A stretch of DNA of 52,411 bases from a virus, in the IMG/VR virus record IMGVR_UViG_3300001352_001640, positions 3,169 to 55,579 of that record, one strand, 5' to 3'. The notes below the pieces were generated by a model, which saw nothing but the letters and a program-made list of their open reading frames with translations, did not search any database and was not told the origin of the DNA. The first letter of the stretch is position 1. The number at the start of each line of letters is the position of its first letter. A program made the translations under genes and the position numbers. Shown here one piece after another: positions 21,850-49,735 of the stretch.

Positions 21850-23823
21850 ATGACAACCGATATGGACATATTCGCAAATAAAAAAGGTAAAGATATAAAT
21901 TACCTTAGTAGAGACTTCAACTCTTTTAAATCAAGTTTGGTACAATATATAAAATCATACTTTCCTGGATCATACAAAGACTTTAGTGAAAACTCAACAG
22001 GAATGATGTTTGTAGAATTATCTGCGTATGTTGGTGATGTTTTGTCTTATTATATAGATTATCAATTTAAAGAGGGATTTTTGCAATATGCAAGTGAACG
22101 AAATAACATAATGACACTTGCGGGTTATTTAGGATACAAACCAAAACCATCGGTTCCTGCATCCACAAATATTTCAGTTATGCACATAGTACCATCAAAA
22201 CTTGATAGCATGGGAAAGAATATTCCAGACATGAAATATGCATTAAATATTGAAGCTGGTATGGAAGTTAGGTCTGGAGATAATTCTGATATTGTGTTCA
22301 GAACAACCCAACCAGTAATCTTTGCCGAAAATACCCAAGACTCTCCATTAACCATTAAAGTTTTTCAAAGAGATTCTTCTGGTCAACCTGTGTATTACTT
22401 GCTTAAAAAACTTGCCCATGTATCAAGTGGAACTTTAAAAAGAAAAGTTGTTCAAGTAGGTGAGGCCTCTTCATTTTATGAAATAGAGTTGGGTGATACT
22501 AATGTGCTGGAGGTGGTTTCTGTAAAGGACTCTGATGAAAATGCTTGGCACGAAGTTCCCTATCTAGCTCAAAGCACGGTGTTGATAGATGAACCAAACA
22601 ACTCAAGAAATAGTCCACTTTATTCTAAATACGCAACAACGGTTCCCTATGTATTGCGATACATGAAAACCTCAAAAAGATTTGTGGTACATACAAATAC
22701 AGACAACACAACCACAATTGAGTTTGGAAAGGGTGATGATAAAATTGACGATGAACTTATAGTCCCGAGTATGAGTAATGTGGGTCGTACTATCAATACA
22801 AATCGTTCTATTTTAGACATGGGTTACGACCCAAGCAACTTTTTGAAAAACGATTCATACGGAGAAGCACCATCCAACACAGAATTGACAATTGATTATT
22901 ATGTGGGAGGTGGTGCGAGCTCCAATGTTGCAAGTAACACACTTAACAACATCAGTCTCGTTTCATATGCCGAGTCAAATGAATTTTTAAATGCAAACGA
23001 ACGATCCACATTAGAAGGAATTAAAAATAGTTTAAAAGTAAACAACGATGAACCTGCACGTGGGGGTAAGGGTGCTGAAAGTGATGAAGAAATAAGATTA
23101 AAAGGTTTGGCCTCTTTTCCTGCTCAACTTCGTGCAGTTACTAGAGAAGATTATGTTATTCGAGCATATTCTATGCCAGCAAAGTTTGGAAGTGTCGCGA
23201 AGTCGTTTGTAACAAAAGACGGAATTTTAGATACACAATCTCAACTTGATATAATTAAAACAAACGAAACGAACCAAGATATATCACCCGAATCAATAAA
23301 TACCGTATACGGAGAAGTGAATAATCCGTTTGCGATAAATATGTATGTACTTAGTTATGATGAAGATAAGAAACTAACACAACCCAATGAACTTGTTTTC
23401 AAAAATCTAACAAGATACATGACACAATATAGAATGTTAACTGATGGACTAAACATATCCAGTGCGTTTATCATTAACATCGGAATATATTTTGAAATCT
23501 CTGTTCTTCATAACTTTAATCAAAAAGAGGTTCTTGATAACACTATGGTTGAACTAACAAATTATTTTGAGATAGATAATTGGCAAATTTCACAACCAAT
23601 TGAAATTAGTAGTTTAGAAATAATGATTTCAAAAATAAACGGAGTTCGTACGGTGGGCAACTTGAGGATTGTAAACCTTACATCAAATGATGGAAATTAT
23701 TCCGTAAACGAATATGACATAGAGTCGGCCACCATTGGTAAGATATTATACCCATCAATGGACCCATCAATATTTGAAGTAAAATTTCCTGGTAGAGATA
23801 TAGTTGGGAGGGTTGTGTCGTGA
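21850..23823 (+). CDS. 6: Baseplate wedge protein gp6-like (baseplate J family)
   Basis: The 657-residue protein (T4 gp6 has 660) begins INYLSRDFNSFKSSLVQYIKSYFPGSYKDFSENSTGMMFVELSAYVGDVLSYYIDYQFKE in its first 80 residues, and then YASERNNIMTLAGYLGYKP, the characteristic N-terminal region of gp6 homologues. The C-terminal half has EEIRLKGLASFPAQLRAVTREDYVIRAYSMP, the typical baseplate J-like segment. gp6 dimers form the inner ring of the baseplate and connect the wedges. It is followed at once by a gene whose GTG start overlaps the TGA stop. Family and gene order agree. Confidence 0.93.
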   Translation: MTTDMDIFANKKGKDINYLSRDFNSFKSSLVQYIKSYFPGSYKDFSENSTGMMFVELSAYVGDVLSYYIDYQFKEGFLQYASERNNIMTLAGYLGYKPKPSVPASTNISVMHIVPSKLDSMGKNIPDMKYALNIEAGMEVRSGDNSDIVFRTTQPVIFAENTQDSPLTIKVFQRDSSGQPVYYLLKKLAHVSSGTLKRKVVQVGEASSFYEIELGDTNVLEVVSVKDSDENAWHEVPYLAQSTVLIDEPNNSRNSPLYSKYATTVPYVLRYMKTSKRFVVHTNTDNTTTIEFGKGDDKIDDELIVPSMSNVGRTINTNRSILDMGYDPSNFLKNDSYGEAPSNTELTIDYYVGGGASSNVASNTLNNISLVSYAESNEFLNANERSTLEGIKNSLKVNNDEPARGGKGAESDEEIRLKGLASFPAQLRAVTREDYVIRAYSMPAKFGSVAKSFVTKDGILDTQSQLDIIKTNETNQDISPESINTVYGEVNNPFAINMYVLSYDEDKKLTQPNELVFKNLTRYMTQYRMLTDGLNISSAFIINIGIYFEISVLHNFNQKEVLDNTMVELTNYFEIDNWQISQPIEISSLEIMISKINGVRTVGNLRIVNLTSNDGNYSVNEYDIESATIGKILYPSMDPSIFEVKFPGRDIVGRVVS

Positions 23824-25646: not shown

Positions 25647-28600
25647 ATGCCTGATTTTTTACAGTATATACAGGATACTCCTTACGAGAAGAAACGACTA
25701 ACTCGGGGGTATGATGTAGATGAATCTACTTTATCTATCGGATTTGCTGAAGAACCAACTCCTTATGACTTTGGATTATCTCCAAAAGACTCAATAGAAT
25801 TTTCAGTTTATTCTTCAGATGGAATAAAACTCGCATGGAAAGTCGTTGATGATGAACCTAACTATGAAATCATAAACTTAGATTACACCAATATGTCTGA
25901 TGAACGTGTTGGTGGGCAGGCCAGAATATTTACTAAAAACTATCCTACCATTGACGGAAGTGTTGTAGTTTCACCCAGTATAGATGCCAAATCGGTTGGA
26001 ATAGATTCTGGTTATTATTATATGAGGTATTCGTTTGTAAACGATATAATTGGGTCTTCGGCAAATAAAAGTAAGTTGTTGATAAAGGATATATCAAACT
26101 CACGAACTGAAATAAAAGTTATACCTGAGTGTTTAAAAACCTCAAACCGACCCGAGGATATTTCTCTATCATTTGAATACGAAAACTTTTCAAACAAAAG
26201 ACTACCGGTTTCTCATTTGTACAACTTTACAGAAAAGTTATTAAAACCAACTAATATAATAGCAAACGAATTTGATGAGAGTTTATCTGAATTACTCACA
26301 GATTATGAAACTTCTATGGAACTGGCCATGGAAATGCTGGGCAACACCGACCGAAAACAAGTGTTTATAGAAATTGAATCGGTTAGAAAACGTGTATTTG
26401 AACTGTATAAAAACACATTGTTATCAGAATACAATGAAGTATATTCTAGAACAGACTTTTATGTACAATATATAAATTCAATAAACTATGAGATTTCAAA
26501 GCAGAAACGATTAGCAGATTCAGAGGTATCACCACAGATTATTGATTTATATAAATCTGTTTTGATAATTTTATTTGACTCAGATTACTTGAATACTCTA
26601 TTTGTTGACCGATTTGAAATGTATTTTAATAATTACATAAACTTTGGTTCGGCCGAGAGTTACCCCATATTGTCAGTCTCTTCTGCAAATGAAAACATAG
26701 GAGATGTTGAAAAACACGTTCCTATGATAATAAAACTATCAGAACCATTGCCACAAACAATAACAACTGGTAATCGTCTTTATATATCAAACAAACTATA
26801 TTCAGATGATGTGGTGCAAAAAGTAAATTATTACCAAGAAATAAAATCTAATTTAACAAAACTAAGAGGACCAAACCGATCACAGGTAGTTTCAAATTCT
26901 GGTACAAAGGAATATACAAAAGACGAACTACAAACGGAGTCGGGTACATCTGAAATAGATTCCACCACCATCGCGATGTCATCTTATTTTAATTCCAATA
27001 TTAATAAAGGAATGACAAAGTTTGATGAGTTTTCCGACTTTGTAAAGTTTTCATCTGCAAAGGGTCAACTTGATGTGTTTATTCAAAAGTTCTCAAAACT
27101 ATCTAAGTTGATAAATACAATTACTTCATATGAATATTCAATTGAGGTTATTGATAAAAAAATAGAAGACAACAAATTACCAGATACCCAGTCATCCCGA
27201 TCATCTATTTCAATTTTACAAAGAATTGATCTTAAAGAAAAACTTACTGAACTAGACAATGAACTACTTATGTTGTCTGATTACGAACGATTTTTATTTT
27301 ACACAGAATCTGTTCGTGCATATCCACGAAGCACCGATTTATATATATCAAAAATAACAGGATCAAATAGACTTGCCAATGGTCGGTACGTATCGTATGG
27401 ATATTTTAACGATAAAACTTCGTACAAGCACTGGTTGGCTGATTGGTTTTTTTGGTGGGACTCACAAACATATCAATGGGTGTTATCAGACACACAATAC
27501 ACAAAGGGTGGTGTATTCTTCGCAGTAAAAAGTGAAACATATTTTTACGAAGCTGAAGCAAAGTGGTCTGATACAAATGAGTTCGAAGATGATGTTATTC
27601 TCAAGGTTTCAAAAGAAACTATTGAGTATGGTCCTGAAAAAGGAAAACTTGCTCCTGAATATGTAACGGAAGATGTAGCTGATTGGTCTAAAACAAGTTT
27701 GGGTTATAAGTGGTACATAGACATGGCAACCGAGGCAACTTATTACGACAAAAGCAACGATGACTATTTAGCATTAAACATACCAGAGTTTTTAATAAGA
27801 GATGATTCCAACGAAGATTTCATAAAGTTACTTAGTGCAGTTGGTTTAACATTTGATACAATTGATAACTACATCAAAAATATGGGGAACTCACGCGAGG
27901 TCAGAAACGATCCTAACAAGGGAATTTCCGATGATCTTGTGTATTACTTTTTAAATGCATACGGAATGAGTGTGTCGGGTAAAAACACCCGTGCCGATCC
28001 AGCTTCAAAGTTAAAACTAAAAGACGAAACCAGTTCCGAGTACAAAAGAACACAGACCTGGAGAAGAATGCTAAATAACTTAGCATACATACTAAAAACA
28101 AAAGGCACACGTGAAGCAGTAGAAGCACTTATCAAGTGCTATGATATACCAGAACAACTTTTCGTTACACGTGAGTATGGTGGCTCTTCATTAGAAGACT
28201 CGTCCACAAAGTTTTCGGAATTTTCATTTGATACATATGATTATAGATTATCAATTCAAGAAGAAGATGAGTATGTACAAGTTCCTTGGAATTACAATGA
28301 TTTAAAACCAAAAGCACTTGAATTAAAATTGCACATACAATCAACTGCATCATTGACACCCAAGTTTTATGAAGTCGAGTTTACACCTATAATTGAATGT
28401 GGAGATTGGTCGTTTGGAATAAAACGAAACACATCAAATTCTGACGGGTGGTGGAGGTTTTACATAAACTTTGCGGGCAACATTACTTATGGTGCTGACC
28501 AAGATTCACCATTTGACGCAGTAATACCACCAAATGACAAAGACCCGTTGTATATGCACCAGGACGATGGATACGACATACTCATACAAGTTTCTGACAA

Positions 28601-31600
28601 ATACAAAGGCCTTAAAAGAAAAATGTTGTCTGTTTATGTCAAACGGCAGAATGATGGAGACCTAGTTTTAGAGGAAGTGGTGGATGTCTTAATTGACGAG
28701 ACATCATACATTAATTTTTCAAAACCAACCGATCTGTTCATCGGAAATTACACAGGAGGTGCGTTTCAGGGTGAAATCGATAGACTGAGAATTTATACGC
28801 ACGAAATAGAAGAAGAGGATTTTAATCAGCACATAAAGTTCGGTCAGTCTTATAGTTTACGAGTTACTGATAAGTCACTGGAGGATACTCTCATATTTAA
28901 AACTAACTTTGATTATCCACACGACGTTTCGTACTCTTCAAACTACCAATATGGGTATGGAATAATTCCCAATTCTTCTTTAAAAGATAGTCACTCTAAG
29001 CATTTAAAATGTTACAACTTTAAGAAAACAGAGTATCCATATAATTTCGTTGGTTCTTACAAAAAAGAGTTCGCAGAACTTCCTGCATTTGGTGCTCAGG
29101 TTTTCAACAACAAAAAAATTCGTATAGAGGAACAAGAAACAACTGCAAATCTAAATCCGTTTAGTCGTGTAACGAAACGTTCACTTGATCGTGTTGGTAT
29201 TGATACTAATAAACTTGGTGTGTTTTTTGGAAAAAGTGTTTCATTAAACGAAGAGATTATTAAATTTTTCGGAAAAATAAAACTTGGTGATTTTATAGGA
29301 AACCCAGAAGACTACAACAAGAAACAATATACAGAACTCACCAAACTTAGAAAGATATTTTTTAAACACGGATTTGGTAAGGTTGATTGGTATGATTACA
29401 TAAACCAACTCAAGGGATATTTTGATGAATCCTTTTTTGAAAATTTAGAAAGATTGGTTCCTGGTAGAACTACATTAACGAGTGGGTTGTTGATTGAACC
29501 ACTTTTATTGGAACGACCAAAAATAAAAGGTACGGAAATAAAAACAGACATTGAATCAAATGTTGACAGATATCAAGTAATAGAACCAACTGAAAAAATA
29601 AAACCACTTAGAAATATCAGGTTGTCTGCCAAGTTAAAAAATAAGAATATTGTTCAGTTTTCAAATGCGTCTGTGTACGGAGACCGAAACACAGACACCA
29701 ATGTTACTTGTTTGAGTTCAAAATTTTTATATAAAAAAATTAAAGGAACGAGTTATTCAACTGACCTCTTTGCTAATGTTGATTATTCTTATTTAACTGG
29801 AATTTGTTCTAATTTTGGTCATACAACATTTGACGGAATTACATACCGGGTTGAAAACGAAGATTTCAAATTAGCACACAATAATAAGTTTTTAAGTGGG
29901 TTAGTTGATTACACAATAGCTAATAAAGTTAAATTGACTCTGACGTTCGTAGAAACCCGTACCTCAGTCGAAGCTCACTTTTCAACTGCAATGGGTGAGT
30001 ATATATCAGATAAAAATGTTAATGGAGCAAGGTTGTTTATAAACTCAGCTCAAACTTGGTTTATATATTATGAACCATATATAACTCGTTGGGTTTTGGT
30101 TGATGTTGACCCACGACAAACCACAGACACCCACGAACTTCTACCAGATGGTTCGGCCAGAAGAATGTATTCAACCACCACTGGTGGAACATTTCCCACC
30201 GAGTTTACTATAAATGCGTATACAGAAGTCAACTCTGTTTTAACAGGAAATTACGAAGGGTGGCACGGGATGTTCCGGTCACAAGGAACAACCGGCACAA
30301 CACCACTTACACGAAACCGAGAATACAAAACATCCTCGGTGGTAGAAATCCTAAATGACAAATTCATTAATATATCAGGGGAAGTTCTTGGTGTATTAGA
30401 GTGTGAGGTGACAGGAAGTTTTAACGGAAAATATAATGAAGTAACAGACGACGGTACCGTTATCTCTCATAAACATGGCAGTTATTTATTTAGAGGATCA
30501 AAGAAAACACTAAAATTGGAAGGACACTTCACCGGAACACTTGCACACGGATTTGTTGGTTCTAAAGAAACACGTTCTGAGTTTGTGGTTAAAAACGGAT
30601 ATGTAAATGCAGAAAGATTCGGTGGTTGTTATTTTTCAAACAAAAAAATGTACGGTCCGGTCAACGATGTAGTTGAAGATGATCTGCGTTATACTAATTT
30701 AAATTTAGATATTTTTGATTCAACTAAACTGAATCAAACAACACAGAGTTTTAAAAACATAAAACTGGTACCTGTTCCATCTCGGATTAAATATGATATA
30801 ATAAACGAATCGGTTGAAATAAAGAAAAAAGTAAACATTGAACGAAATTCAACAAATAAAGTTTTTTACGAAAATGGAATACGAACAAGAAAAACCCTCG
30901 GAACATATACAAATTGTTTTTATCAAGAAACTCAAGATGACATAATACCTGCACTGTATCACAATGTTCAACTAAAACTAAAAACAAAACTAAAAACAAA
31001 TCACATCAGGAACATAAAGATTTTGGCATATACATCTGATATGGCCAAACCGAGCACTCAGCAGAACATCTCGTATGTCAGAAAATTTAAAACACAAGTA
31101 ATTAAAAACGAAACCTATACTATAAATCTTGGCTTAAATTTCTATTATAAAATGGAAACTGATTCGTATAAGGTAGAACCTGTGATTTACTCACGTGGCA
31201 GAGAGTTAACAGAAAACTCATTTTATAGTATAAAGTATGATCAGTATGGTGATTCAATTTCTGAAAAAGAAAACTTTTGGGATTCTGAGATGTGGAGTGA
31301 TCTTGACGATATATACAATAAGTCAGACTATGTGTTTGTTATGACACAAGAAGAAACAAAACAAGAATTCAGAACAACTCGTAGTTCTTTGTTTTCACTT
31401 GATATAAGTGCATCACACAGAGTTTATTTTGTTGCAAACTTAAATGACCAAGAATCATCTGATATCGGATTTCATTCTCTTGACTATGTAAGTGATGCCA
31501 AAGAAACAACCCACCGAGGAGAAACAAACACACTCAATGCACAGGACCTGTATAGTCGCATAGACAATTACATATACACAGAACAGGATGAGGGAGTAAC

Positions 31601-34600
31601 ATATGACAGAATTAAAATAATTCACAACCGACACTATAAAATTCATAATAACATCAAGGTCGGTGATTCAATACGACTTGATGTGTACGGAAAGAAGAAA
31701 ACGAAATATTCATTGCAACTAAATCGTGAACTTACTCCCGGTGAATCTGATGATTCAGAGGCCGTCATTTTTACAAAAGAGACACTTGATTGCCACATAA
31801 CTTATGACATAAAAGAAAAATTTCTGAGATATGAAGCAATCATAGAACCAATTAAATATCACGCATATTACACAACCGAGAGTCCGTCAACATATTTTCT
31901 GATAATGCCCAAGTCAGAGTATGCGGGTTTCTCTCTTGCAGGTTACAATGGTCGTTGGAAATCTGCAAATGGAACATATGCTCAAAGTCATCGGATAAAC
32001 GGAAAGTACACTTATTTAAATGAAAACGGAACTTGGTTGGTATTTTGGACCACCGATACTCCAAAGTGCAACAAAGAAAATTTAAACGGAGCATGGGTCT
32101 TGGTTAAAGTAAATCCTGTGGAATTTCCCTCGTTAATACAAACCGAACTAACAAATCAGACAATATCATTGTGGATGTATGGATTTATTCCAAGTGAGTT
32201 TAATTCAGAAGTTGTGTCTAATTCGAGTACGCAAATGAACGCAACGGTGTTTAGCACAGACTATGGTTCAGGAAAACCTGCAACTGATATCAAATATGAG
32301 GCAACCGTTTCGTATACCAAAGAGTTGTGTAACGACCAGGATTATGTACAACAACAAATTAAACAAAGAAGTTCAAATTCGATTGATACCTCGTTTGTTG
32401 TAATTCCAAATAAATCTGCATTTGAATTTGCAGAAAAGCACGGTAAAAATACTCTCGGAGTTAAAGATCAAACTTTATCATGGGTATTAAGTATAAGCAG
32501 TGTTGAAAGTAAACTACCTGCCAGAGGATTATATGAAAAAATAAAACCGAGTAAAGATGTAGATGTTCAACTTGAGGTAGATTATATACAAGAGTTTGAC
32601 AGAACTACTCCCGTGGTTAGGGTAATTGGTTCTGATGTTAGAACCACGGATTTTCTTATGACAGAGGGTGAATACTACCCAACCTCAGTTGAATCTAGTG
32701 GATTTCCTGTGTATAGAAATAAAAACGGATTTTTGATTCGTCGAGATAAATACATGGATGAAAGTTCCAACATGGGTTATGTTTGGTTGATTGCACAAGA
32801 TTCTCAACCAATTAACACACGAACCGATGACTTGCTAAATAAAAAACGACTGGTATTCGTATCATCTGCGGGTAGTTGTACAAGTGATGACTTTAATTTT
32901 AGAGTTGGATATGACATGAATCCGAATATAAATACAAACCGAAGTCGGAATGATATGCTTGCAGGTGCATTTGAGGATTCAGTAAAACTAAAAAACCCCG
33001 ACACACAAATTAAATGGGGGTACAATAGAAACGAATCTGCCTGTTCCGTGTGTGAAGATATAACCACACCTGATTTTAACATTGAGATAACTCCTGATGA
33101 TATATACACATCATACGCAGGTAGGCAGAGTTATATAACAACTTATGTGGGTAGTGTTGATGCTAACATTGAATGCAACCAACTATCATGTCCTCCTGAT
33201 GTGCTAAAATTCCAAGGAGACTATACAAATGCCGATTCGGTTTATTGTGATAGTTTATTGTGCTATGATCAAGTCGACGGAAACTCCAGATTCAAGAAAA
33301 CCGAAGCTGGGTGGGTGATTGAAGCTTCTATGGTAGGAACTGGAGGAGATTTTTCATCTTATGTGTCTAGTAACAACTCTGACATTTCCTCTATCGGCAC
33401 ACAACATCAACACCCTAAGTATGGAATGTATATATCAGATGAAGGACAACATAGTTTTATTTATTATGAAAAAAATGAATATTCAGAAATTAAAATATGC
33501 ATAAACTCAGATAACACCAAGTTGCATCCTAAGTTCACAAAAACAAATTACATAAAAAATGGAAGACCGGTTTATGAAAATGAAAACGAGTGGTTCATAT
33601 TTTACAACAAAGAAGAAATTTCAGAAAACGAATATTGGTGTATAAGTGATACCATGTCAGACAGAAATGTAAAATATAAAGCAGACGTTCGGTGGGCAGA
33701 TGAAAAAAATCATAAAGAAGGAGACAGACAATTTGATGAAGAATTTGGTGTGTACTATAAAAAGACTGATATCATTGATCTAACAGAAAAAAATGCAATC
33801 GTTGTTAACATGAAAATTAATTTGAATGTTGATAGTGCTCGTAATATATTAGCACTGGACGAATACGATTTATCATCGTTATCATATAAATTAACATATG
33901 ACGGTGTCCGACAGATAGAATCAAACATTCTTGAAATACTTCCGATTATGAGTTCGTCAAAAAATCAAATTATATCAGAAATACCATTGTCAGTTAATTA
34001 CAGACCCGAGATGATGTACGGAGATTATCCTAAATTGCTGGACATCGAATTTGAAACTAAAGGAAATTACGATTACAACTCTACAGACAAAACTCCCATA
34101 ACTTTAAAAATAAAGTCTCTTGGCAATGTGAAGTCGTTTAACTTTGATGTTGATCTTAAAAACTCGTACTCTCGTCTTGACAAAGTTACACATCAGTCAT
34201 TTAACTTGTTAATTAAAAATAACCCAAGTAATGATGATTTAGATGCAGGATTTCTTGCGATTGATCCTGAGTTTGAAAAATATTATGTAAACGAATTAGA
34301 ATATGAATTGGATGTTGTCGTAAAAACTACACGTGAACCAATTACTGTCATTAAAAATCTAAAAAAAGTTGATCAACAAGTTAGTTTTTGTGAATTGTTT
34401 GAAGATGATGGAGATGAATCTGACCGAGATATAGTAATAAGTTTTTCCGAAAATTTAAATTATACAATTGATAAACAATATTCACTCACGGATGTTACTA
34501 AAGTAAAAGTAAATAATGATTTAGTTGTACGTGGACGATCAAAGGAACATATATCATACAAAAGAAAAAGAACTAAACGAAACTCGGTAAATACTGTGAA

Positions 34601-34967
34601 TTCAACTGTCAACCTTGACGGTGGTGTGCTTGATTTTACGTCACCGGTTGTACGAACAAGAAGTGTACTCCCACGGACAGGATATGACTCTGGTGCACCT
34701 GATTCTTTTTGGTTTACGGATGAAACTCCAGTAACTAAACTACCGACACAAGAACCCGTTATAGTACGCAATGGTGTATATGATTTACCACACGATGTGT
34801 TGGATAACTTGGAATTTTATTATTCATTCAACAACGAAGATTCGGAGTTTGTTGGAAATTTAGAAACACCCACCCCATCTCCATCTGCCACAGAAACACC
34901 CACACCGTCACCCTCCCCAAGTCCATCTACCACAGAAACACACTCACCAACCCCAACCGATGACTAA
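25647..34967 (+). CDS. Giant multi-domain tail/baseplate protein, 3106 residues
   Basis: One uninterrupted frame spans 9.3 kb. Residues about 570-640, 1444-1518, 2081-2156, 2321-2388 and 2589-2688 carry diverged copies of an aromatic module (NGRYVSYGYF, NGARLFINSAQTWFIYYE, NGKYTYLNENGTWLVFW, GEYYPTSVESSGFPVYRN, NGRPVYENENEWFIFYN). Residues about 818-845 read KTKGTREAVEALIKCYDIPEQLFVTREYGG, a segment found in tail proteins related to phage gpI and T4 gp7-like proteins. Residues about 858-1073 form a LamG/concanavalin-like domain ending FIGNYTGGAFQGEIDRLRIY. The C-terminus is a 35-residue Pro/Thr/Ser tail. It is likely a baseplate-wedge or tail-fibre protein that also contacts cell-surface glycans. 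Confidence 0.8.
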   Translation: MPDFLQYIQDTPYEKKRLTRGYDVDESTLSIGFAEEPTPYDFGLSPKDSIEFSVYSSDGIKLAWKVVDDEPNYEIINLDYTNMSDERVGGQARIFTKNYPTIDGSVVVSPSIDAKSVGIDSGYYYMRYSFVNDIIGSSANKSKLLIKDISNSRTEIKVIPECLKTSNRPEDISLSFEYENFSNKRLPVSHLYNFTEKLLKPTNIIANEFDESLSELLTDYETSMELAMEMLGNTDRKQVFIEIESVRKRVFELYKNTLLSEYNEVYSRTDFYVQYINSINYEISKQKRLADSEVSPQIIDLYKSVLIILFDSDYLNTLFVDRFEMYFNNYINFGSAESYPILSVSSANENIGDVEKHVPMIIKLSEPLPQTITTGNRLYISNKLYSDDVVQKVNYYQEIKSNLTKLRGPNRSQVVSNSGTKEYTKDELQTESGTSEIDSTTIAMSSYFNSNINKGMTKFDEFSDFVKFSSAKGQLDVFIQKFSKLSKLINTITSYEYSIEVIDKKIEDNKLPDTQSSRSSISILQRIDLKEKLTELDNELLMLSDYERFLFYTESVRAYPRSTDLYISKITGSNRLANGRYVSYGYFNDKTSYKHWLADWFFWWDSQTYQWVLSDTQYTKGGVFFAVKSETYFYEAEAKWSDTNEFEDDVILKVSKETIEYGPEKGKLAPEYVTEDVADWSKTSLGYKWYIDMATEATYYDKSNDDYLALNIPEFLIRDDSNEDFIKLLSAVGLTFDTIDNYIKNMGNSREVRNDPNKGISDDLVYYFLNAYGMSVSGKNTRADPASKLKLKDETSSEYKRTQTWRRMLNNLAYILKTKGTREAVEALIKCYDIPEQLFVTREYGGSSLEDSSTKFSEFSFDTYDYRLSIQEEDEYVQVPWNYNDLKPKALELKLHIQSTASLTPKFYEVEFTPIIECGDWSFGIKRNTSNSDGWWRFYINFAGNITYGADQDSPFDAVIPPNDKDPLYMHQDDGYDILIQVSDKYKGLKRKMLSVYVKRQNDGDLVLEEVVDVLIDETSYINFSKPTDLFIGNYTGGAFQGEIDRLRIYTHEIEEEDFNQHIKFGQSYSLRVTDKSLEDTLIFKTNFDYPHDVSYSSNYQYGYGIIPNSSLKDSHSKHLKCYNFKKTEYPYNFVGSYKKEFAELPAFGAQVFNNKKIRIEEQETTANLNPFSRVTKRSLDRVGIDTNKLGVFFGKSVSLNEEIIKFFGKIKLGDFIGNPEDYNKKQYTELTKLRKIFFKHGFGKVDWYDYINQLKGYFDESFFENLERLVPGRTTLTSGLLIEPLLLERPKIKGTEIKTDIESNVDRYQVIEPTEKIKPLRNIRLSAKLKNKNIVQFSNASVYGDRNTDTNVTCLSSKFLYKKIKGTSYSTDLFANVDYSYLTGICSNFGHTTFDGITYRVENEDFKLAHNNKFLSGLVDYTIANKVKLTLTFVETRTSVEAHFSTAMGEYISDKNVNGARLFINSAQTWFIYYEPYITRWVLVDVDPRQTTDTHELLPDGSARRMYSTTTGGTFPTEFTINAYTEVNSVLTGNYEGWHGMFRSQGTTGTTPLTRNREYKTSSVVEILNDKFINISGEVLGVLECEVTGSFNGKYNEVTDDGTVISHKHGSYLFRGSKKTLKLEGHFTGTLAHGFVGSKETRSEFVVKNGYVNAERFGGCYFSNKKMYGPVNDVVEDDLRYTNLNLDIFDSTKLNQTTQSFKNIKLVPVPSRIKYDIINESVEIKKKVNIERNSTNKVFYENGIRTRKTLGTYTNCFYQETQDDIIPALYHNVQLKLKTKLKTNHIRNIKILAYTSDMAKPSTQQNISYVRKFKTQVIKNETYTINLGLNFYYKMETDSYKVEPVIYSRGRELTENSFYSIKYDQYGDSISEKENFWDSEMWSDLDDIYNKSDYVFVMTQEETKQEFRTTRSSLFSLDISASHRVYFVANLNDQESSDIGFHSLDYVSDAKETTHRGETNTLNAQDLYSRIDNYIYTEQDEGVTYDRIKIIHNRHYKIHNNIKVGDSIRLDVYGKKKTKYSLQLNRELTPGESDDSEAVIFTKETLDCHITYDIKEKFLRYEAIIEPIKYHAYYTTESPSTYFLIMPKSEYAGFSLAGYNGRWKSANGTYAQSHRINGKYTYLNENGTWLVFWTTDTPKCNKENLNGAWVLVKVNPVEFPSLIQTELTNQTISLWMYGFIPSEFNSEVVSNSSTQMNATVFSTDYGSGKPATDIKYEATVSYTKELCNDQDYVQQQIKQRSSNSIDTSFVVIPNKSAFEFAEKHGKNTLGVKDQTLSWVLSISSVESKLPARGLYEKIKPSKDVDVQLEVDYIQEFDRTTPVVRVIGSDVRTTDFLMTEGEYYPTSVESSGFPVYRNKNGFLIRRDKYMDESSNMGYVWLIAQDSQPINTRTDDLLNKKRLVFVSSAGSCTSDDFNFRVGYDMNPNINTNRSRNDMLAGAFEDSVKLKNPDTQIKWGYNRNESACSVCEDITTPDFNIEITPDDIYTSYAGRQSYITTYVGSVDANIECNQLSCPPDVLKFQGDYTNADSVYCDSLLCYDQVDGNSRFKKTEAGWVIEASMVGTGGDFSSYVSSNNSDISSIGTQHQHPKYGMYISDEGQHSFIYYEKNEYSEIKICINSDNTKLHPKFTKTNYIKNGRPVYENENEWFIFYNKEEISENEYWCISDTMSDRNVKYKADVRWADEKNHKEGDRQFDEEFGVYYKKTDIIDLTEKNAIVVNMKINLNVDSARNILALDEYDLSSLSYKLTYDGVRQIESNILEILPIMSSSKNQIISEIPLSVNYRPEMMYGDYPKLLDIEFETKGNYDYNSTDKTPITLKIKSLGNVKSFNFDVDLKNSYSRLDKVTHQSFNLLIKNNPSNDDLDAGFLAIDPEFEKYYVNELEYELDVVVKTTREPITVIKNLKKVDQQVSFCELFEDDGDESDRDIVISFSENLNYTIDKQYSLTDVTKVKVNNDLVVRGRSKEHISYKRKRTKRNSVNTVNSTVNLDGGVLDFTSPVVRTRSVLPRTGYDSGAPDSFWFTDETPVTKLPTQEPVIVRNGVYDLPHDVLDNLEFYYSFNNEDSEFVGNLETPTPSPSATETPTPSPSPSPSTTETHSPTPTDD

Positions 34968-42978: not shown

Positions 42979-43506
42979 ATGTCAAATAATAATATCTCCC
43001 TTGGACTTGATATAAGCTCAACCACTATAGGTTATTGCTTTTCCTCTTCTAAGAACAAAATAAACCAAGCAGGTTTTATAGCCGTTCATAAAGAAATATC
43101 CATAAGAAGCAAGGCACATAAGGTTGCAGACGAATTGAAACAGATTCAACTGCAACCTTCTGATGTAATTGTAGAAGATTCATTGAGTGGGTTTGGTGGG
43201 GGTCGGACAAGTCAACAGACTATAGTCAAACTTGCCAAGTGCAATGCCATAATAAGTTATGTGGTAGAAGAGATGTATAATCTTGAGGTACAACACGTAA
43301 ATGTGTCTACTATGCGTAAATCTGTGTTTGGTAAAAGCAGAGAAAAAGGATTGGATAGTAAAATATTCGTAAAGAACAACTTAGATAATATGCTTGATTT
43401 ATCTGAATTTACCTTCTATAATAGTAGGCAGAATTATGATAAAAAAAACTATGATATGCTTGATGCCGTGGTGGCATCGTTGCACTATTGGTATTCGTTA
43501 AAGTAG
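42979..43506 (+). CDS. RuvC-like Holliday junction resolvase
   Basis: The 175-residue protein has the RNase H-fold resolvase layout of RuvC. LGLDISSTTIGYC supplies the first aspartate (D11), DVIVEDSLSGFGGG the catalytic glutamate (E66), and YDMLDAVVASLHYW the C-terminal acidic pair (D159, D162). RuvC-family enzymes cut four-way DNA junctions in recombination and help resolve branched replicating phage DNA before packaging. T4 uses the unrelated gp49 for this. Size is normal for the family. It overlaps the primase gene by one base (TAGTG), and the operon continues into the recombination nuclease. Confidence 0.85.
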   Translation: MSNNNISLGLDISSTTIGYCFSSSKNKINQAGFIAVHKEISIRSKAHKVADELKQIQLQPSDVIVEDSLSGFGGGRTSQQTIVKLAKCNAIISYVVEEMYNLEVQHVNVSTMRKSVFGKSREKGLDSKIFVKNNLDNMLDLSEFTFYNSRQNYDKKNYDMLDAVVASLHYWYSLK

Positions 43507-44432
43507 TGGGGGTTTCTGAACAAAAACTTCTTAATCTTTTACAAAAAATATTGGGAAGTGGCAAAGTCGTCTCTAAGGACGAGGTAATGTTTGTGTGTCC
43601 GTTTTCTCATCACAGAAAACCAAAACTGGCAGTAAACCTAACAACTCAACGGTGGCAAAGTTGGATTGATACAAATGCCAAAGGACGAAGTATTTATTCA
43701 TTATTTAAACGTCTGCAAGTTCCTGGTAACTATTTCACAGAACTTTCTAAAATTGTAAAACTTCCCAAGAACATAAAACCAGAAAATGCAGAAGAACAAT
43801 TTGTATCGTTGCCATATGAGTTTAAAAAACTAACCGAAACACATACCGAATTTGCATATAAGCAGGCCTTGGCATATCTTAAAAAAAGAAACATCGGTTC
43901 ATATGATATAGAACGATACGACATGGGATATTGTGCAAACGGAGATTATGCAGGAAGAATAATAGTTCCCTCGTATGACGCAGATAATAAGTTGAATTAT
44001 TTTCTTGCTAGAGATTTTACCGGCAATGCGTATTTAAAATACAAAAACCCACCAGTTAGTAAAGATGTGGTTGTGTTTGAAAATCAAATAGATTTTTCTG
44101 AACCACTTGTTTTTTGTGAAGGTGTGTTTGATGCAATGGCCATTCGTAGAAATGCAATTGCACTGTTGGGAAAAAACATACCAAGTAAATTGAAAATGCG
44201 ACTGATAGAACACGGGGTAACTGAAGTTAGCATTGTATTGGATAACGATGCGTATAAAAACGCATTGGCAATGTCCGAGTCGTTGATGAACGATAATATT
44301 AGAGTTAAGTTGATTAAAATGGGAAACGAAGATGCAGCGGACATTGGGTTTAATAAAATTATTCAAAGAATCAAGAGTGCAACTCTTCTTGATTTTGGTG
44401 AATTGATGAAGCAAAAATTATGCATGAATTAA
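43506..44432 (+). CDS. 61: DNA primase, DnaG/gp61-like, with degenerate zinc finger
   Basis: I choose GTG 43506, overlapping the previous stop (TAGTG), giving 308 residues; a TTG lies 18 bases upstream. The catalytic Toprim fold shows VFCEGVFDAMAIRRNAIALLGKNI (about 200-223, with the key glutamate) and VSIVLDNDAYKNA (DxD metal site). Residues 31-60 correspond to the N-terminal zinc finger: CPFSHHRKPKLAVNLTTQRW keeps one cysteine and histidines, but where the second CxxC pair is expected the sequence reads SWIDTNAKG. Primases make RNA primers for lagging-strand DNA synthesis. Loss of ligands may mean a different fold stabilisation. It overlaps the next gene by 13 bases. Confidence 0.85.
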   Translation: MGVSEQKLLNLLQKILGSGKVVSKDEVMFVCPFSHHRKPKLAVNLTTQRWQSWIDTNAKGRSIYSLFKRLQVPGNYFTELSKIVKLPKNIKPENAEEQFVSLPYEFKKLTETHTEFAYKQALAYLKKRNIGSYDIERYDMGYCANGDYAGRIIVPSYDADNKLNYFLARDFTGNAYLKYKNPPVSKDVVVFENQIDFSEPLVFCEGVFDAMAIRRNAIALLGKNIPSKLKMRLIEHGVTEVSIVLDNDAYKNALAMSESLMNDNIRVKLIKMGNEDAADIGFNKIIQRIKSATLLDFGELMKQKLCMN

Positions 44433-45124
44433 AATCGGATATAAAAAATGTTGAAAAAATATATCATTTAGCAGACATTCACATACGAAATATAAAACGA
44501 CACACCGAATATTCACAGGTGTTTGAAAACTTTTACGAACAGGTTAAAAAAGATAATCTTGATAATGCACTTATTTTCATTGGTGGGGACATTGCTCATG
44601 CCAAAACTGAAATGAGTCCAGAGTTGATAAAGCAAATATCCTCATTTTTACGTAGATGTTCAAAATTACACCCAACTCTCGTAATTGCAGGAAACCACGA
44701 TTGTAATTTAAATAATCCTGATCGGTTAGATGTGTTGTCTCCTATAATGGATATGATGGATGATGATAATTTGTTCTACTTAAAAAATAGTGGGGTTTAT
44801 AAAATCGGAGATGTTGCAGTTGGTGTGTTTAGTATTTTAGATGATCCGGAAAATTATGTAGCAGGTCTAGACATAACAGATCCCGACATTAAAACTAAAA
44901 TAGGAGTTTATCATGGTGCAGTAAAACGAAGCATGACTGACATAGGATATGTAGTTATGGGGGGTGACATTGAGTTACCTATGTTCAACGGATATGACAT
45001 CGTTATGTTAGGAGATATACACAAATATCAGGTGTTACAAGAATATCAATCGGAACATAGATTTATACCAGAACATAAAGTAGATGAATACAAATTAAAA
45101 GGTTGGTGTTTAAGTGATGACTAA
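44420..45124 (+). CDS. 47: N-terminal part of gp47/Mre11-like nuclease (split gene)
   Basis: The 234-residue product carries all early phosphoesterase motifs of gp47/SbcD/Mre11: HLADIHI (D19, H21), GGDIAH (55-60), AGNHD (90-94), VYHGAV (H165) and LGDIH (197-201). Homology appears to end after KYQVLQEY at residue 209. The last 25 residues (QSEHRFIPEHKVDEYKLKGW and LSDD) do not look like nuclease. The missing remainder (SGSMIQQNHGE, GHGYVLWD and the cap) is at the start of the gene at 46042, after an unrelated glycosyltransferase gene. T4 gp47 has 339 residues. Whether the two parts reassemble is unknown; catalytic residues are intact. Confidence 0.85.
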   Translation: MHELKSDIKNVEKIYHLADIHIRNIKRHTEYSQVFENFYEQVKKDNLDNALIFIGGDIAHAKTEMSPELIKQISSFLRRCSKLHPTLVIAGNHDCNLNNPDRLDVLSPIMDMMDDDNLFYLKNSGVYKIGDVAVGVFSILDDPENYVAGLDITDPDIKTKIGVYHGAVKRSMTDIGYVVMGGDIELPMFNGYDIVMLGDIHKYQVLQEYQSEHRFIPEHKVDEYKLKGWCLSDD

Positions 45125-46052
45125 AATACTCATAAAATGCAGAAACATCCACATCGGTGATACATTGTTTGCAAGTAGTGTAGCAAAAAAACTCAAAGAA
45201 CAAAATTCCGAATCTACAATTCACTATGATGTTACATTTTTGCAACCAATTGAGTTGCTGATGAACAACCCATACATTGATAGAGTTTACTATCGTGAAA
45301 GTTGTGAAACAGATTATGATGTAGTTTATCAACTGATGGGTGAGGATGTATCTGTGTTAAACCCGTATGAATCAGCAGTTTCTCAATTTCAACGAATGTG
45401 TAATATAAAAAACTTTGACGATACCTTTGAAGTTTATACAAACAAACACCTTGATTATTCAATTAAACGGAGTATGGAGGAGTTAACTGAACTTAAAGAG
45501 TGGAATTCAGATTTAATAAAAGTCGGATATCAAATGGACTGGGAACGCAAAAGTTTTTTATTTACCGAACAAGAATATGATAGTGCAGTTGGTGGAGAAG
45601 ATGGAACTGGATATGGAAATGGAAGCAGACAAATTTTTGATATTATCAATTGCCTAGAATCATCTCCTAAAATAATGTTGTTTGCACTTGGTTTGGAAGA
45701 AACTATATCAAAAAACTATCCTTGTTTAAATTCAACAAGTAAATTCTCGTTTACTGCAAGTTTAATGAAAAATTGTGATTATGTAATTGGAACAGAGGGT
45801 TGTTTGACAAACATCTCATCTGCTCTTGGAACACCCACCATTATTACAACCGACTATATCCATCAACTGTTTGGACCAAAAGGAATACATTGGCAACAGT
45901 CGGGTGGAGATTTAAGCAACTTAGAAACAAGAAAACCCTTTTTGGGTCCTAATTCATATTTTCCAACCGGAAATCATGTTCACTTGAGTCCGTTTTTGAC
46001 AGACGGTGAGGTGGGTAATCAAATAGAAAAAATCATTTTTAATGGAAACTAA
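45117..46052 (+). CDS. Glycosyltransferase family 9, heptosyltransferase-like
   Basis: The protein of 311 residues starts MTKILIKCRNIHIGDTLFASSVAKKLKEQ, the GT9 opening (nucleotide-sugar heptosyltransferases of LPS inner core), then IHYDVTFLQPIELLMNNPYIDRV, and in the C-terminal half LMKNCDYVIGTEGCLTNISSALGTPTIIT, the typical donor-site region. The ATG at 45117 overlaps the end of the gp47 N-terminal part (GTG at 45114 is possible) and the stop overlaps the start of the gp47C-gp46 gene. It thus sits inside a split recombination gene. The substrate may be ADP-heptose or another nucleotide sugar. It might modify host LPS, but this is not shown. Confidence 0.85.
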   Translation: MTKILIKCRNIHIGDTLFASSVAKKLKEQNSESTIHYDVTFLQPIELLMNNPYIDRVYYRESCETDYDVVYQLMGEDVSVLNPYESAVSQFQRMCNIKNFDDTFEVYTNKHLDYSIKRSMEELTELKEWNSDLIKVGYQMDWERKSFLFTEQEYDSAVGGEDGTGYGNGSRQIFDIINCLESSPKIMLFALGLEETISKNYPCLNSTSKFSFTASLMKNCDYVIGTEGCLTNISSALGTPTIITTDYIHQLFGPKGIHWQQSGGDLSNLETRKPFLGPNSYFPTGNHVHLSPFLTDGEVGNQIEKIIFNGN

Positions 46053-48642
46053 AGAAGTATACGTAAAAGTAAAACGGCACAACGCAAATAAACCTGTCGT
46101 GGTTTATTCGGGAAGCATGATTCAACAAAATCACGGTGAAAAACCACATGGCCATGGTTATGTTTTGTGGGACATCCCCAGTCGGAAGCACACACACCAT
46201 GATGTTCACAACGACTATGGTTATTACACAATCGAAGTCCGTGACGGAAAATGCGTTAGTGATTTAGATAAACTCCCCAACAAAGCAAGACTTCGTGTAA
46301 AAGTTTATAATACAACTGCAACCGAAACAAAAGAAATAATTGCAGACATTCGTAGACGTACAAGTATAAGTGATTTGAATGTTACCCGATGTGATGCAAT
46401 ATCAGAAGCAAAGAAATTCGATAGAGACAACAAATTTGATTTCGGTGATATATCGTTAGTTCAGGTTCAGAATAATCTAATTGAAGATTATCTACGGCGT
46501 AACTTTGTCGTGGATGATGAGCAAATAAAAACTGCACTTGATATCAACAAAGAAGTAAACGAAAAACTTGTAATAAAGGAGACACTTAGAAATTGTATTT
46601 GGAAACCAAAGAAATTTGAGTTTGGAAATATGTTCAGTTACGGAGATGGTAACGTTGTTGACTTTTCTAATATGAAAAGTGTTATGGGGTTGTTTGCATC
46701 AAATGCAAGTGGAAAAAGTAGTGTAATGAGTGCATTGAGTTTTTGTCTGTTTGATAAATGTGATAGAGCATTCAAAGCAGCTCATGTATTGAATACACAA
46801 ACAGAATCTTTTTATTGTAAATTAAACTTTGAAATATCAGGAGTAAACTATTTCATAGACCGAACTGCAACTACCAAAAAGAATGGTGATGTAACCGTTG
46901 TAGTTGACTTTTGGAAGTTAGATGAAGATGGTCAACAACTATCATTAAACGGAGAACAACGAGCAGGAACCAACGCAGCTATTCGTGACCATGTAGGTTC
47001 ATATGATGATTTTGTTTTAACTGCACTTAGTTTGCAAAACAATAATGCTATTTTTATAGATAAAAGTCAAAGTGAACGAAAAGATTTACTTGCTCAGTTT
47101 ATGGGTATCGATACCTTTGATCAATTACATACAACTGCATCCGAGGACATCAAAGAAATTAATGCCTTATTAAAACGATTTAATCGTGACGATTTTGATA
47201 AAACTTTATCTGAAACCCAAGAAAATCTTGATGATGTTAAGAAACGATATTCTGAACAAGATAGTAAAACTAACATGGCACTACTTGAGCAAAAACGATC
47301 CAACAAACAATTGGCAGATAAAAACTCTCAATTTAAGAATTGTTCTTTTGACGAATCATCGGTGGACATAGACAAACTTGAGTTTACTAAAAAGAATCTA
47401 CAAGAACGTTTGGTTGTGGCCAAAGAAAACCGAGACGCAGAATCCGAGAGAAAGGCACAATTAGCAACGAACCGAAAAAATAAATCAACCGAGTTAGTTA
47501 AATTGGATGGTACAGAAGAAAAGTATGTTAAAGTTCTAGCAATCCGTGAAGAAATAACAACAGTTGAAAAAGACTTAGCAGTTCTTCGTACATCTGTAAA
47601 TGCTAAATTAGACAAACTCAAACACTATGATAGTCACGCATATGATCCTAAGTGTAAGTTTTGTGTAAACAATTCCAAAAATCTTATAGAAAGTGCTTCA
47701 CAAACAAAAGAAGAACTTGATAAAGATAAAGCAGCTGCTGATGATCTGGTAACACAAAAAAATGAATTGTTGACGATACTAGATGAATATAAAGATATTG
47801 AATCTAATTATGAAAAACTGGGTGAGTTAAAATCCACCACAACTCAACTTACTTACGAAGTTAATGAAGCAGATTCTAAAGTTCTTGCGTTGTCAAGTAT
47901 GATAGAGTCGTTGGATAAAGATGTGGTATTAAATGATAAAAATATTGAAGCATACTACGAATGTAAGGATATTATAGAGTTCAATAAAAAACTACAATTG
48001 GAGGTGGATGCAATTCAGAACAAGTTAATCAGCATAAATAATTTAGCAAATATTGAAACTGAAAAACTACAAACTTTATTCGGAGAAGTAAAAATTGTTG
48101 AAAAGGAACACGAAGATATTGTTGCATCAATTGAAGAGGCAAAGGGATATGAACGAAAAAAACGTGGATATGAACTTTATTTAGATGCAGTAAAACGAGA
48201 TGGTATTTCATATGAACTTATTTCCAAAACAATTCCAAGTATAGAAAGTGAAGTTAATAATATTCTTTCTCAAATTGTTGATTTTGGTATGCAACTTGAA
48301 ATGGACGGAAAACACATCTATTCAAAGATTACATATGAAGATCGTCATTGGCCATTAGAAATGTGCAGTGGAATGGAACGATTCATCAGCAGTATCGCAA
48401 TGCGGGTAGCACTTATCAACGTAAGTAGTTTACCACGTTCTAATTTCCTTGTTATTGACGAAGGGTGGGGTTCGTTGGACGGAGACAACATAAGTAGTGT
48501 ATTTAACCTGTTCACCTATTTAAAGGGGCAGTTTGAGTTCGTAATGGTTATTAGTCATTTGGACGTAATGAGAGATATGGTGGACGAAATTATTGAAATT
48601 CAAAAAGAGGGTTCTTTTAGTAAGATAAATTACGGAGCATAA
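46042..48642 (+). CDS. 46: Fusion of gp47 C-terminal part with gp46/Rad50-like ATPase
   Basis: The 866-residue protein begins with residues that complete gp47: VVVYSGSMIQQNHGE (19-33) and GHGYVLWDI (37-45), followed by the cap and Rad50-binding region up to about residue 187. It continues as gp46/Rad50: FGNMFSYGDGNVVDF, the Walker A-like ASNASGKSS (219-227; the usual first glycine is A), long coiled coils with a zinc hook CKFC near 536-539, the ABC signature CSGMERF near 775, and NFLVIDEGWGSLDG (Walker B and D-loop) near 803. gp46/gp47 process double-strand ends for recombination-dependent replication. In T4 they are separate genes. Start ATG 46042 overlaps the GT9 stop. Confidence 0.88.
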   Translation: METKEVYVKVKRHNANKPVVVYSGSMIQQNHGEKPHGHGYVLWDIPSRKHTHHDVHNDYGYYTIEVRDGKCVSDLDKLPNKARLRVKVYNTTATETKEIIADIRRRTSISDLNVTRCDAISEAKKFDRDNKFDFGDISLVQVQNNLIEDYLRRNFVVDDEQIKTALDINKEVNEKLVIKETLRNCIWKPKKFEFGNMFSYGDGNVVDFSNMKSVMGLFASNASGKSSVMSALSFCLFDKCDRAFKAAHVLNTQTESFYCKLNFEISGVNYFIDRTATTKKNGDVTVVVDFWKLDEDGQQLSLNGEQRAGTNAAIRDHVGSYDDFVLTALSLQNNNAIFIDKSQSERKDLLAQFMGIDTFDQLHTTASEDIKEINALLKRFNRDDFDKTLSETQENLDDVKKRYSEQDSKTNMALLEQKRSNKQLADKNSQFKNCSFDESSVDIDKLEFTKKNLQERLVVAKENRDAESERKAQLATNRKNKSTELVKLDGTEEKYVKVLAIREEITTVEKDLAVLRTSVNAKLDKLKHYDSHAYDPKCKFCVNNSKNLIESASQTKEELDKDKAAADDLVTQKNELLTILDEYKDIESNYEKLGELKSTTTQLTYEVNEADSKVLALSSMIESLDKDVVLNDKNIEAYYECKDIIEFNKKLQLEVDAIQNKLISINNLANIETEKLQTLFGEVKIVEKEHEDIVASIEEAKGYERKKRGYELYLDAVKRDGISYELISKTIPSIESEVNNILSQIVDFGMQLEMDGKHIYSKITYEDRHWPLEMCSGMERFISSIAMRVALINVSSLPRSNFLVIDEGWGSLDGDNISSVFNLFTYLKGQFEFVMVISHLDVMRDMVDEIIEIQKEGSFSKINYGA

Positions 48643-48685: not shown

Positions 48686-49735
48686 ATGAGCAATTCCGAA
48701 GAAAATCAAGAAGTCCAAGAAGAAAGTCTTATCAAGGCTGGTCTTCGCAAAGGATATTTTACACTCGTTGAGGGTGTATATGATCCTGGTATTTTAAAAG
48801 CAGTATTTTTGGCAGGTGGTCCTGGTGCAGGTAAATCAGCAGTTGTAGATACCGTTTTTAATACAACACCCGAAGTAAAGTCATTAACTTCAACTGGATT
48901 AAAAATAGTAAATAGTGATAGTTCATTTGAGCATTTATTGAAAAAAGCAGGACATAGTTTAGATTTAGGTTCTTTAGACGATGATGTGTTTCAACAAATA
49001 ACAAGTGATGATCCAAATTCAATTCGTTCACGTGCCAAGAACATTATGCTTAAACAATACGAGAATTACAAGAACGGTAGATTGGGTGTTATTGTTGATG
49101 GAACTGGTGATGATTATGCTAAGATATCAAAACAAAAGAAAGAGTTGGAAAAACTTGGATATGATTGTTATATGGTATTTGTTAATACAACACTTGAAGT
49201 TGCACAACAAAGAAATGCGTTTCGTGCAAGAAAACTTCCACGTAAAATTGTGGATGTTATATGGAAAGATGTTCAAAAGAATATGGGGAAATTCCAAAGT
49301 TCATTCAAGCAGAATTTTACGATTATTGATAACTCAGAAGATTTAAGAAGCAAAACAAAACCAGGAAAACTTAATCTTGCTCCTTTTATATTAAAAGCAA
49401 CTGCAAAATTTATCGGAAAACCAATTCGCAATCCTATTGGTAAACAATGGATTACGTTAATGATGAAACATGATAGCATGACCAAAAGTGGAGATTCTAG
49501 AAATCGCATGAATGAGGATCTAGACATGGTTGATATGGAGGGTGTAATGTTACCTATGGACTTGGAACGGCATTTAAGTCGTTCTATATTTGTTATTAAA
49601 AAATTTAAATTAAATGAAAGAAGAAATCTTGCGGTTTTATCTCGTCTGGTGGAGAGTTTGGAGTTAAACAGAAATCAAATGGTCAAGTATTTTCATCACA
49701 TTAGAACTTTGAAATTTAAAGGAGAGAAATCTTAA
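48686..49735 (+). CDS. P-loop kinase, zeta-toxin-like/AAA_33-like
   Basis: The 349-residue protein has a Walker A motif GGPGAGKS at 44-51 in KAVFLAGGPGAGKSAVVDTV, then KIVNSDSSFEHLL, a central GVIVDGTGDDYAKISKQKKELEKLGYDCYMVFVNTTLEVAQQRN, and an arginine-rich lid (RNAFRARKLPRKIVDVIW). This is the pattern of zeta-toxin-type and polynucleotide-kinase-type phosphotransferases. Its substrate is unknown. The C-terminal 130 residues carry no known motif. No antitoxin-like gene is adjacent, so a toxin role is unlikely; it is more likely a phage nucleotide, RNA or protein kinase. The stop overlaps the next ATG by one base. Confidence 0.78.
   Translation: MSNSEENQEVQEESLIKAGLRKGYFTLVEGVYDPGILKAVFLAGGPGAGKSAVVDTVFNTTPEVKSLTSTGLKIVNSDSSFEHLLKKAGHSLDLGSLDDDVFQQITSDDPNSIRSRAKNIMLKQYENYKNGRLGVIVDGTGDDYAKISKQKKELEKLGYDCYMVFVNTTLEVAQQRNAFRARKLPRKIVDVIWKDVQKNMGKFQSSFKQNFTIIDNSEDLRSKTKPGKLNLAPFILKATAKFIGKPIRNPIGKQWITLMMKHDSMTKSGDSRNRMNEDLDMVDMEGVMLPMDLERHLSRSIFVIKKFKLNERRNLAVLSRLVESLELNRNQMVKYFHHIRTLKFKGEKS

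Follow-up and report, generated by a model that had tools for sequence, protein, structure and literature searches.

Phage genes that are interrupted by an inserted gene, with both pieces retained, form a known class, and in the best-studied cases the intruder is a selfish endonuclease. In phage Aeh1, nrdA is split by mobE (nrdA-A / mobE / nrdA-B) and the split enzyme is active (PMC2988022; Friedrich 2007 and Crona 2011, as cited in PMC2988022 and PMC3267527). The products of the split gene 43 of Aeromonas phage 25 co-purify, and this case and T4 genes 39/60 are endonuclease-linked splits of replication genes whose parts are translated separately (PMC2988022). A second comparison concerns Mre11 and Rad50, which are fused in Mimivirus (R555), in Bacillus phage 0305phi8-36 and in aquatic viral metagenomes, the order being nuclease then ATPase (PMC3175470).

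The locus described here lies in a window of 52,411 nucleotides, the whole stretch of viral DNA that was analysed. It resembles the Aeh1 case in that a small gene interrupts a housekeeping gene in a critical region, without an intron, and both pieces are kept and carry extra tails where they were separated; the tail at the C-terminus of NrdA-A resembles those of the window's clade. The two differ in gene and insert, an HNH homing endonuclease in nrdA for Aeh1 and a putative glycosyltransferase (GT) in gp47 for the window. The phage 25 and T4 genes also contain another type of insert, and their tails bear no resemblance to those of the window that is evident by eye. As to the Mre11-Rad50 fusions, which are frequent in aquatic viruses, they share with the window a nuclease and an ATPase on one chain in this order, whereas those of Mimivirus R555 and 0305phi8-36 are uninterrupted. 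With a conserved gene cut by an inserted one, both pieces conserved and neither intron nor intein, the locus belongs to the class of endonuclease-split phage genes. New here are the glycosyltransferase insert, found in all split loci except one, and the endonuclease-like insert in that one, LR756508.1, at the same loop. We consider it rather probable that a homing endonuclease broke a one-polypeptide gp47-gp46, that the glycosyltransferase gene replaced it, and that the two-piece nuclease reassembles.

A gp47 gene in two pieces

The features of the locus are collected in Table 1. As the initial annotation had read from the letters, all three ORFs overlap, the first and the GT gene by 8 nt and the GT gene and the third ORF by 11 nt; a scan for promoters and terminators between the genes gave nothing above shuffles. 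The first ORF matches phrog_100, an SbcD-like profile, at positions 19-222 (E 1.4e-15) and residues 16-181 of the third ORF match positions 222-384 (E 1.8e-7); the pieces therefore abut at one profile position and no part of the nuclease is missing. Residues 157-864 of the third ORF then match the SbcC-like phrog_77 over 690 profile positions, with Walker A and B heads around a coiled coil (the Walker B model is weak, E 0.0077). The earlier placement of phosphoesterase motifs I to V in the first piece, and of the end of gp47 in one frame with gp46, is borne out by these matches. In the window, gp46 is fused to the gp47 remainder only, and the nuclease core is split after residue 209 of the protein.

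Table 1. Features of the split gp47-gp46 locus in the window (dN/dS values are rough, synonymous sites being near saturation for most pairs)
Feature	Position	Strand	Evidence or remark
RuvC-like resolvase gene, synteny marker	42979..43506	+	phrog_159, E 5.7e-9; order matches intact relative L066
DnaG-type primase gene, adjoining gp47 in split and intact relatives	43488..44432	+	phrog_47, E 4.6e-41
First ORF, 234 aa, Mre11/gp47-type phosphoesterase ending after motif V	44420-45124	+	
gp47/Mre11 first piece, residues 1-209, motifs I-V, eight metal ligands	44420..45046	+	PF00149, E 2.5e-8; phrog_100
First-piece tail, 25 residues, putatively of homing-endonuclease type	45047..45121	+	Not in intact relatives; dN/dS 0.34, short stretch
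Putative GT-B fold, GT9/heptosyltransferase-like gene, 311 aa, exchangeable insert	45117..46052	+	Fold match, IGD motif, allele swaps; alternative start GTG 45114 gives 312 aa
Third ORF, 866 aa, gp47 remainder and gp46	46042-48642	+	
New N-terminus of second piece (METKEVYVKVKRHNA), about 15 residues	46042..46086	+	Not in intact relatives; dN/dS 0.38 over 14 codons
gp47 remainder: last nuclease-core strands (KPVVVYSGSMIQQNHGE), cap, Rad50-binding region	46087..46620	+	phrog_100 222-384; dN/dS 0.13
gp46/Rad50-like ATPase, in-frame fusion to gp47 remainder	46621..48639	+	phrog_77, E 9.6e-42; AAA_23, E 3.7e-11

Intact relatives have GDIHKHQVLQEYDEKENKPVIAYASSMIQQNHGE at this place; in the window GDIHKYQVLQEY is followed by the tail, and the nuclease resumes with ...NANKPVVVYSGSMIQQNHGE after the insert. 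The break was placed on an AlphaFold model of the intact nuclease of a relative, L066 (mean pLDDT 78.7), whose top PDB matches are Mre11 structures. It falls in loop 211-219 of this model, between strands 207-210 and 220-223, and the length of this loop varies among intact relatives. The model thus places the break in a predicted surface loop that follows the last metal-ligand motif (GDIHKxQ) and precedes the next beta-strand of the core (KPVVVYSGS). All metal ligands (D19/H21, D57, N92/H93, H168 and D202/H204 in L066 numbering) belong to the first piece. As a separate observation, in the ten intact fusions that were aligned and in all split sequences motif V reads GDxH in place of GHxH, a metal-ligand His being replaced by Asp; Aeh1 gp47 has GHYH.

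An IMG/VR scan with the third ORF returned 79 loci. A close group (L001-L035, 70-100% identity) contains the same three genes in every locus that covers the region, and four further contigs from a scan with the GT show the matching layout. Altogether the layout of the window recurs in 38 split loci, which come from about 35 metagenomes, and two contigs (134.8 and 151.8 kb) are nearly identical to it. The first half is 234 aa long in all of them and overlaps the GT gene by 8 nt throughout, while the overlap between the GT gene and the second half ranges from 8 to 14 nt. The split clade is monophyletic (support 100/100). One contig, L028, has a frame change within gp46 at 8307-8309, perhaps a sequencing error.

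The initial annotation had proposed that a one-piece nuclease-ATPase was broken just past its last metal-binding motif, and had suggested a search for related phages with an uninterrupted gene. Such a fusion was found in 124 deeper relatives (102 distinct), namely the distant group L036-L079 (41-44%), L144-L147 and L166-L244, the last counted without three split contigs that were recovered again. In these the gp47-gp46 gene adjoins a primase gene as in the split loci, and in L066 also a RuvC gene; Microcystis phage Mel-JY01 likewise carries the one-piece form. Since, in the split clade, gp46 is still joined to the remainder of gp47, the fusion preceded the split, and the sequences support the ancestral one-piece state. 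With more than 30 independent loci, and intact relatives that align across the break, the split layout did not arise by chance. Glycan-type genes flank gp47-gp46 in several intact relatives (L144 and L147, 3255-4397; L066, 8543-12902; L053, 8566-9384) and look by eye like genes for glycosyltransferases, methyltransferases and a nucleotide-sugar dehydrogenase; this neighbourhood therefore appears to attract such genes.

The glycosyltransferase insert

The initial annotation took the insert for a GT9 heptosyltransferase gene, a reading that its predicted fold favours and Pfam does not. The model of the GT (pLDDT 81) has as top Foldseek matches 3tov (E 2.3e-9), 1psw (E 2.3e-8) and 2h1h, the best PDB folds being a GT9 protein of Veillonella, heptosyltransferase II and heptosyltransferase I/WaaC. 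By sequence there is no GT9 match in Pfam or PHROGs, Pfam giving only DUF354 (E 0.0016), and the GT profile reaches 3tov in the PDB at E 0.16. The residues I13, G14 and D15 are invariant in 21 sequences, and we take this IGD to correspond to the WaaC motif that contains the catalytic Asp. The insert shares the GT-B fold and the N-terminal (I/M)GD motif with the GT9 ADP-heptose:LPS heptosyltransferases WaaC and WaaF, although sequence identity to them is about 10%. On this basis the product is predicted to be a GT-B fold, putative glycosyltransferase of GT9 type. No relatives of it were found in IMG/VR outside the split loci, in phage GenBank, or in bacterial genomes by one pattern scan.

The insert evolves faster than its flanks (dN/dS 0.38, a rough value as most pairs are close to saturation at synonymous sites) and has its own history. 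For L016 and L029, identity is about 90-96% over the first half and about 88-95% over the gp47 remainder, yet 43-84% over the GT, and the borders of these identity levels coincide with the ends of the GT gene; L008 and L015 show a milder version of this pattern. The trees of the four segments reject one another. L003 and L027 differ by a divergent block that begins where the first half begins and extends into gp46; its flanks are 90-98% identical, and it resembles a conversion tract centred on the insertion. GT alleles are thus exchanged between close relatives, the gene itself is fixed in the clade, and its presence in gp47 is not a one-off event.

Tails and the origin of the break

Clues to the maker of the break came from LR756508.1, a 484-kb uncultured phage in which the break in a one-piece gp47-gp46 falls in the loop that is also broken in the window's clade. 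The two loci are also alike in the length of the insert, in a similar first-half tail, and in their neighbours, a RuvC-like ORF and a primase gene; they differ in the insert itself. That of LR756508.1 (5677-6594, 305 aa) contains zinc fingers of HNH type (phrog_1271, E 3.5e-15) together with a nuclease domain like that of TnsA (PF08722, E 5.8e-6, above cut-off), and is therefore a putative homing endonuclease. This pairing of domains is unusual, and here it stands inside gp47.

The first half ends in ...EEDELEKYLNSGWKLDEN... in LR756508.1 and in ...PEHKVDEYKLKGWCLSDD in the window. We compared tails against 25 distinct tails of the clade, with 2000 shuffles and 1548 real ORF C-termini as controls. 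The score of the LR756508.1 tail was reached by none of the 2000 shuffles and none of the 1548 C-termini, and with GW masked by a single C-terminus of the 1548. The Aeh1 NrdA-A tail was examined because nrdA is known to be split by an endonuclease gene; here 10 of 2000 shuffles and 1 of 1548 C-termini did as well. In a search of eight whole records, the LR756508.1 tail had one hit beyond its own genome, the tail of the first half on one contig (L017, E 0.03), that is in one of five split records. An HMM of the clade tail found LR756508.1 weakly (rank 180 of 1550) although the pairwise scoring was clear; this HMM was built from near-identical rows. The tail gave no match in phage GenBank by tblastn, and in PHROGs nothing beyond phrog_1378 at E 0.28. 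Outside these comparisons, the N-terminal extension of T4 gene 60 (SSSVDMKKYKL) resembles the tail motif (S)xVDxxYKL; it sits on the second piece, and the likeness may be due to chance.

Since the tails of LR756508.1 and Aeh1 match those of the clade, the break and the tails are probably the work of a homing endonuclease, which the GT subsequently replaced. The tail had first been thought a piece of another small gene carried in with the GT; this view gave way, because the tail appears to be selected and resembles the tails of endonuclease-split genes, which suggests that the original intruder was an endonuclease. In the scenario we propose, a homing endonuclease gene would have broken the ancestral fusion in the loop after the last metal-ligand motif, leaving the first half with the 25-residue tail and the second with about 15 new residues. 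A gene of GT9 type would then have taken its place and become an exchangeable cassette. The overlapping genes would be translated in turn from one message, and the halves would fold together without a covalent link, probably aided by the tails, in the manner of the split Aeh1 ribonucleotide reductase. Against an endonuclease-first history we count the shortness of the tails and the second-half extensions, whose likeness to those of LR756508.1 and Aeh1 is not significant. For the fuller version, in which an endonuclease split the nuclease, the GT replaced it, the tails still hold the halves together and the site is a stable docking place where GT alleles are swapped via conserved flanks, the arguments on the two sides seem to us evenly balanced.

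The GT could also have been inserted directly, with no endonuclease stage, the tails being read-through of the cassette and their similarity convergence. It is the sole insert seen in the clade, its alleles are exchanged, and the sugar genes beside gp47-gp46 in intact L066, L053 and L144 indicate a neighbourhood that receives such genes. We nevertheless regard this course as unlikely, as the match of the clade tail with those of LR756508.1 and of Aeh1 NrdA-A, whose gene is interrupted by mobE, surpasses all or almost all controls, and the break lies in the loop that is also broken in LR756508.1. Whether one endonuclease event underlies the endonuclease-first history of both splits is a further matter. 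A single clade of the split sequences and LR756508.1 is not rejected (AU p 0.122), and a common origin may thus be envisaged. In the best tree, however, LR756508.1 is not the sister of the window's clade, and no endonuclease was found on any contig of that clade, so that two independent breaks are possible. Every LR756508.1-like relative found in IMG/VR is uninterrupted.

Selection on both halves and the case for reassembly

Pooled dN/dS was 0.19 for the first half, 0.13 for the gp47 remainder and 0.21 for gp46, against 0.34 for the tail and 0.38 for the second-half extension; all are rough because most pairs are close to saturation at synonymous sites, and the last two rest on short stretches. 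Both halves of the protein are thus under purifying selection (0.13-0.21). The ligands D, H, D, N, H, H, D and H are kept in 34 of 34 first halves, and of the 84 columns invariant among ten diverse intact proteins, 74 stay invariant in the split sequences of the clade. The conservation of the ligands together with selection on both halves makes a split nuclease likely, and the halves likely reassemble in trans into an active enzyme. The opposite outcome would be that the second half is not rejoined, one half being dead or newly employed and the phage making no use of a gp47 nuclease. The break does fall inside the catalytic domain, and retained activity is deduced here from sequence conservation. 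This outcome is nonetheless improbable, given the ligands kept in every first half and the strand and cap residues of the second half, the most constrained stretch of all (dN/dS 0.13, a rough estimate). Moreover, a replacement is missing: the initial annotation had considered that close relatives might carry a full-length gp47 elsewhere, and none was found in 16 split-type records of up to 170 kb, some of which may be incomplete.

A covalent rejoining of the halves by an intron, an intein or ribosome bypass is very improbable, even though introns and inteins often interrupt phage genes (PMC3653736). The insert is almost entirely an ORF, in another frame and overlapping both halves by 8-14 nt, and the tail and extension appear to be selected as protein. 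Extra stretches of 25 and 15 residues seem too short for the halves of a split intein. No Rfam match was obtained at E up to 5, which speaks against an intron or structured RNA, and frames and lengths do not fit an intein or ribosome bypass. That the GT segment is an assembly chimera, an objection raised early on, for which the one argument is that the window is a metagenomic contig, can be set aside as practically negligible, because independent contigs from about 35 metagenomes have identical junctions in 38 loci with 48-100% identity among their GTs.

Here the catalytic domain of gp47 is divided in many wild phages by a gene that is ordinary and probably useful, while a relative keeps an endonuclease-like gene at the same site. 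This offers a testable route from the insertion of a parasite to a permanently split protein with a cargo gene. It also makes a natural split Mre11 available for biochemistry, and the tails could serve to recognise further endonuclease scars.

Some other features of the window may be mentioned. Downstream of gp46, a 349-aa ORF (48686-49735) matches a Zeta_toxin/P-loop kinase (PF06414, E 2.1e-10) and phrog_12810 (E 1.9e-35). Two further glycosyltransferase-like genes lie at 2568-3809 (- strand; phrog_2170) and 11420-12835 (+ strand; phrog_1721). A baseplate wedge protein is encoded at 21850-23823, from which it follows that the phage tail is contractile, and a single ORF of 3106 aa spans 25647-34967.
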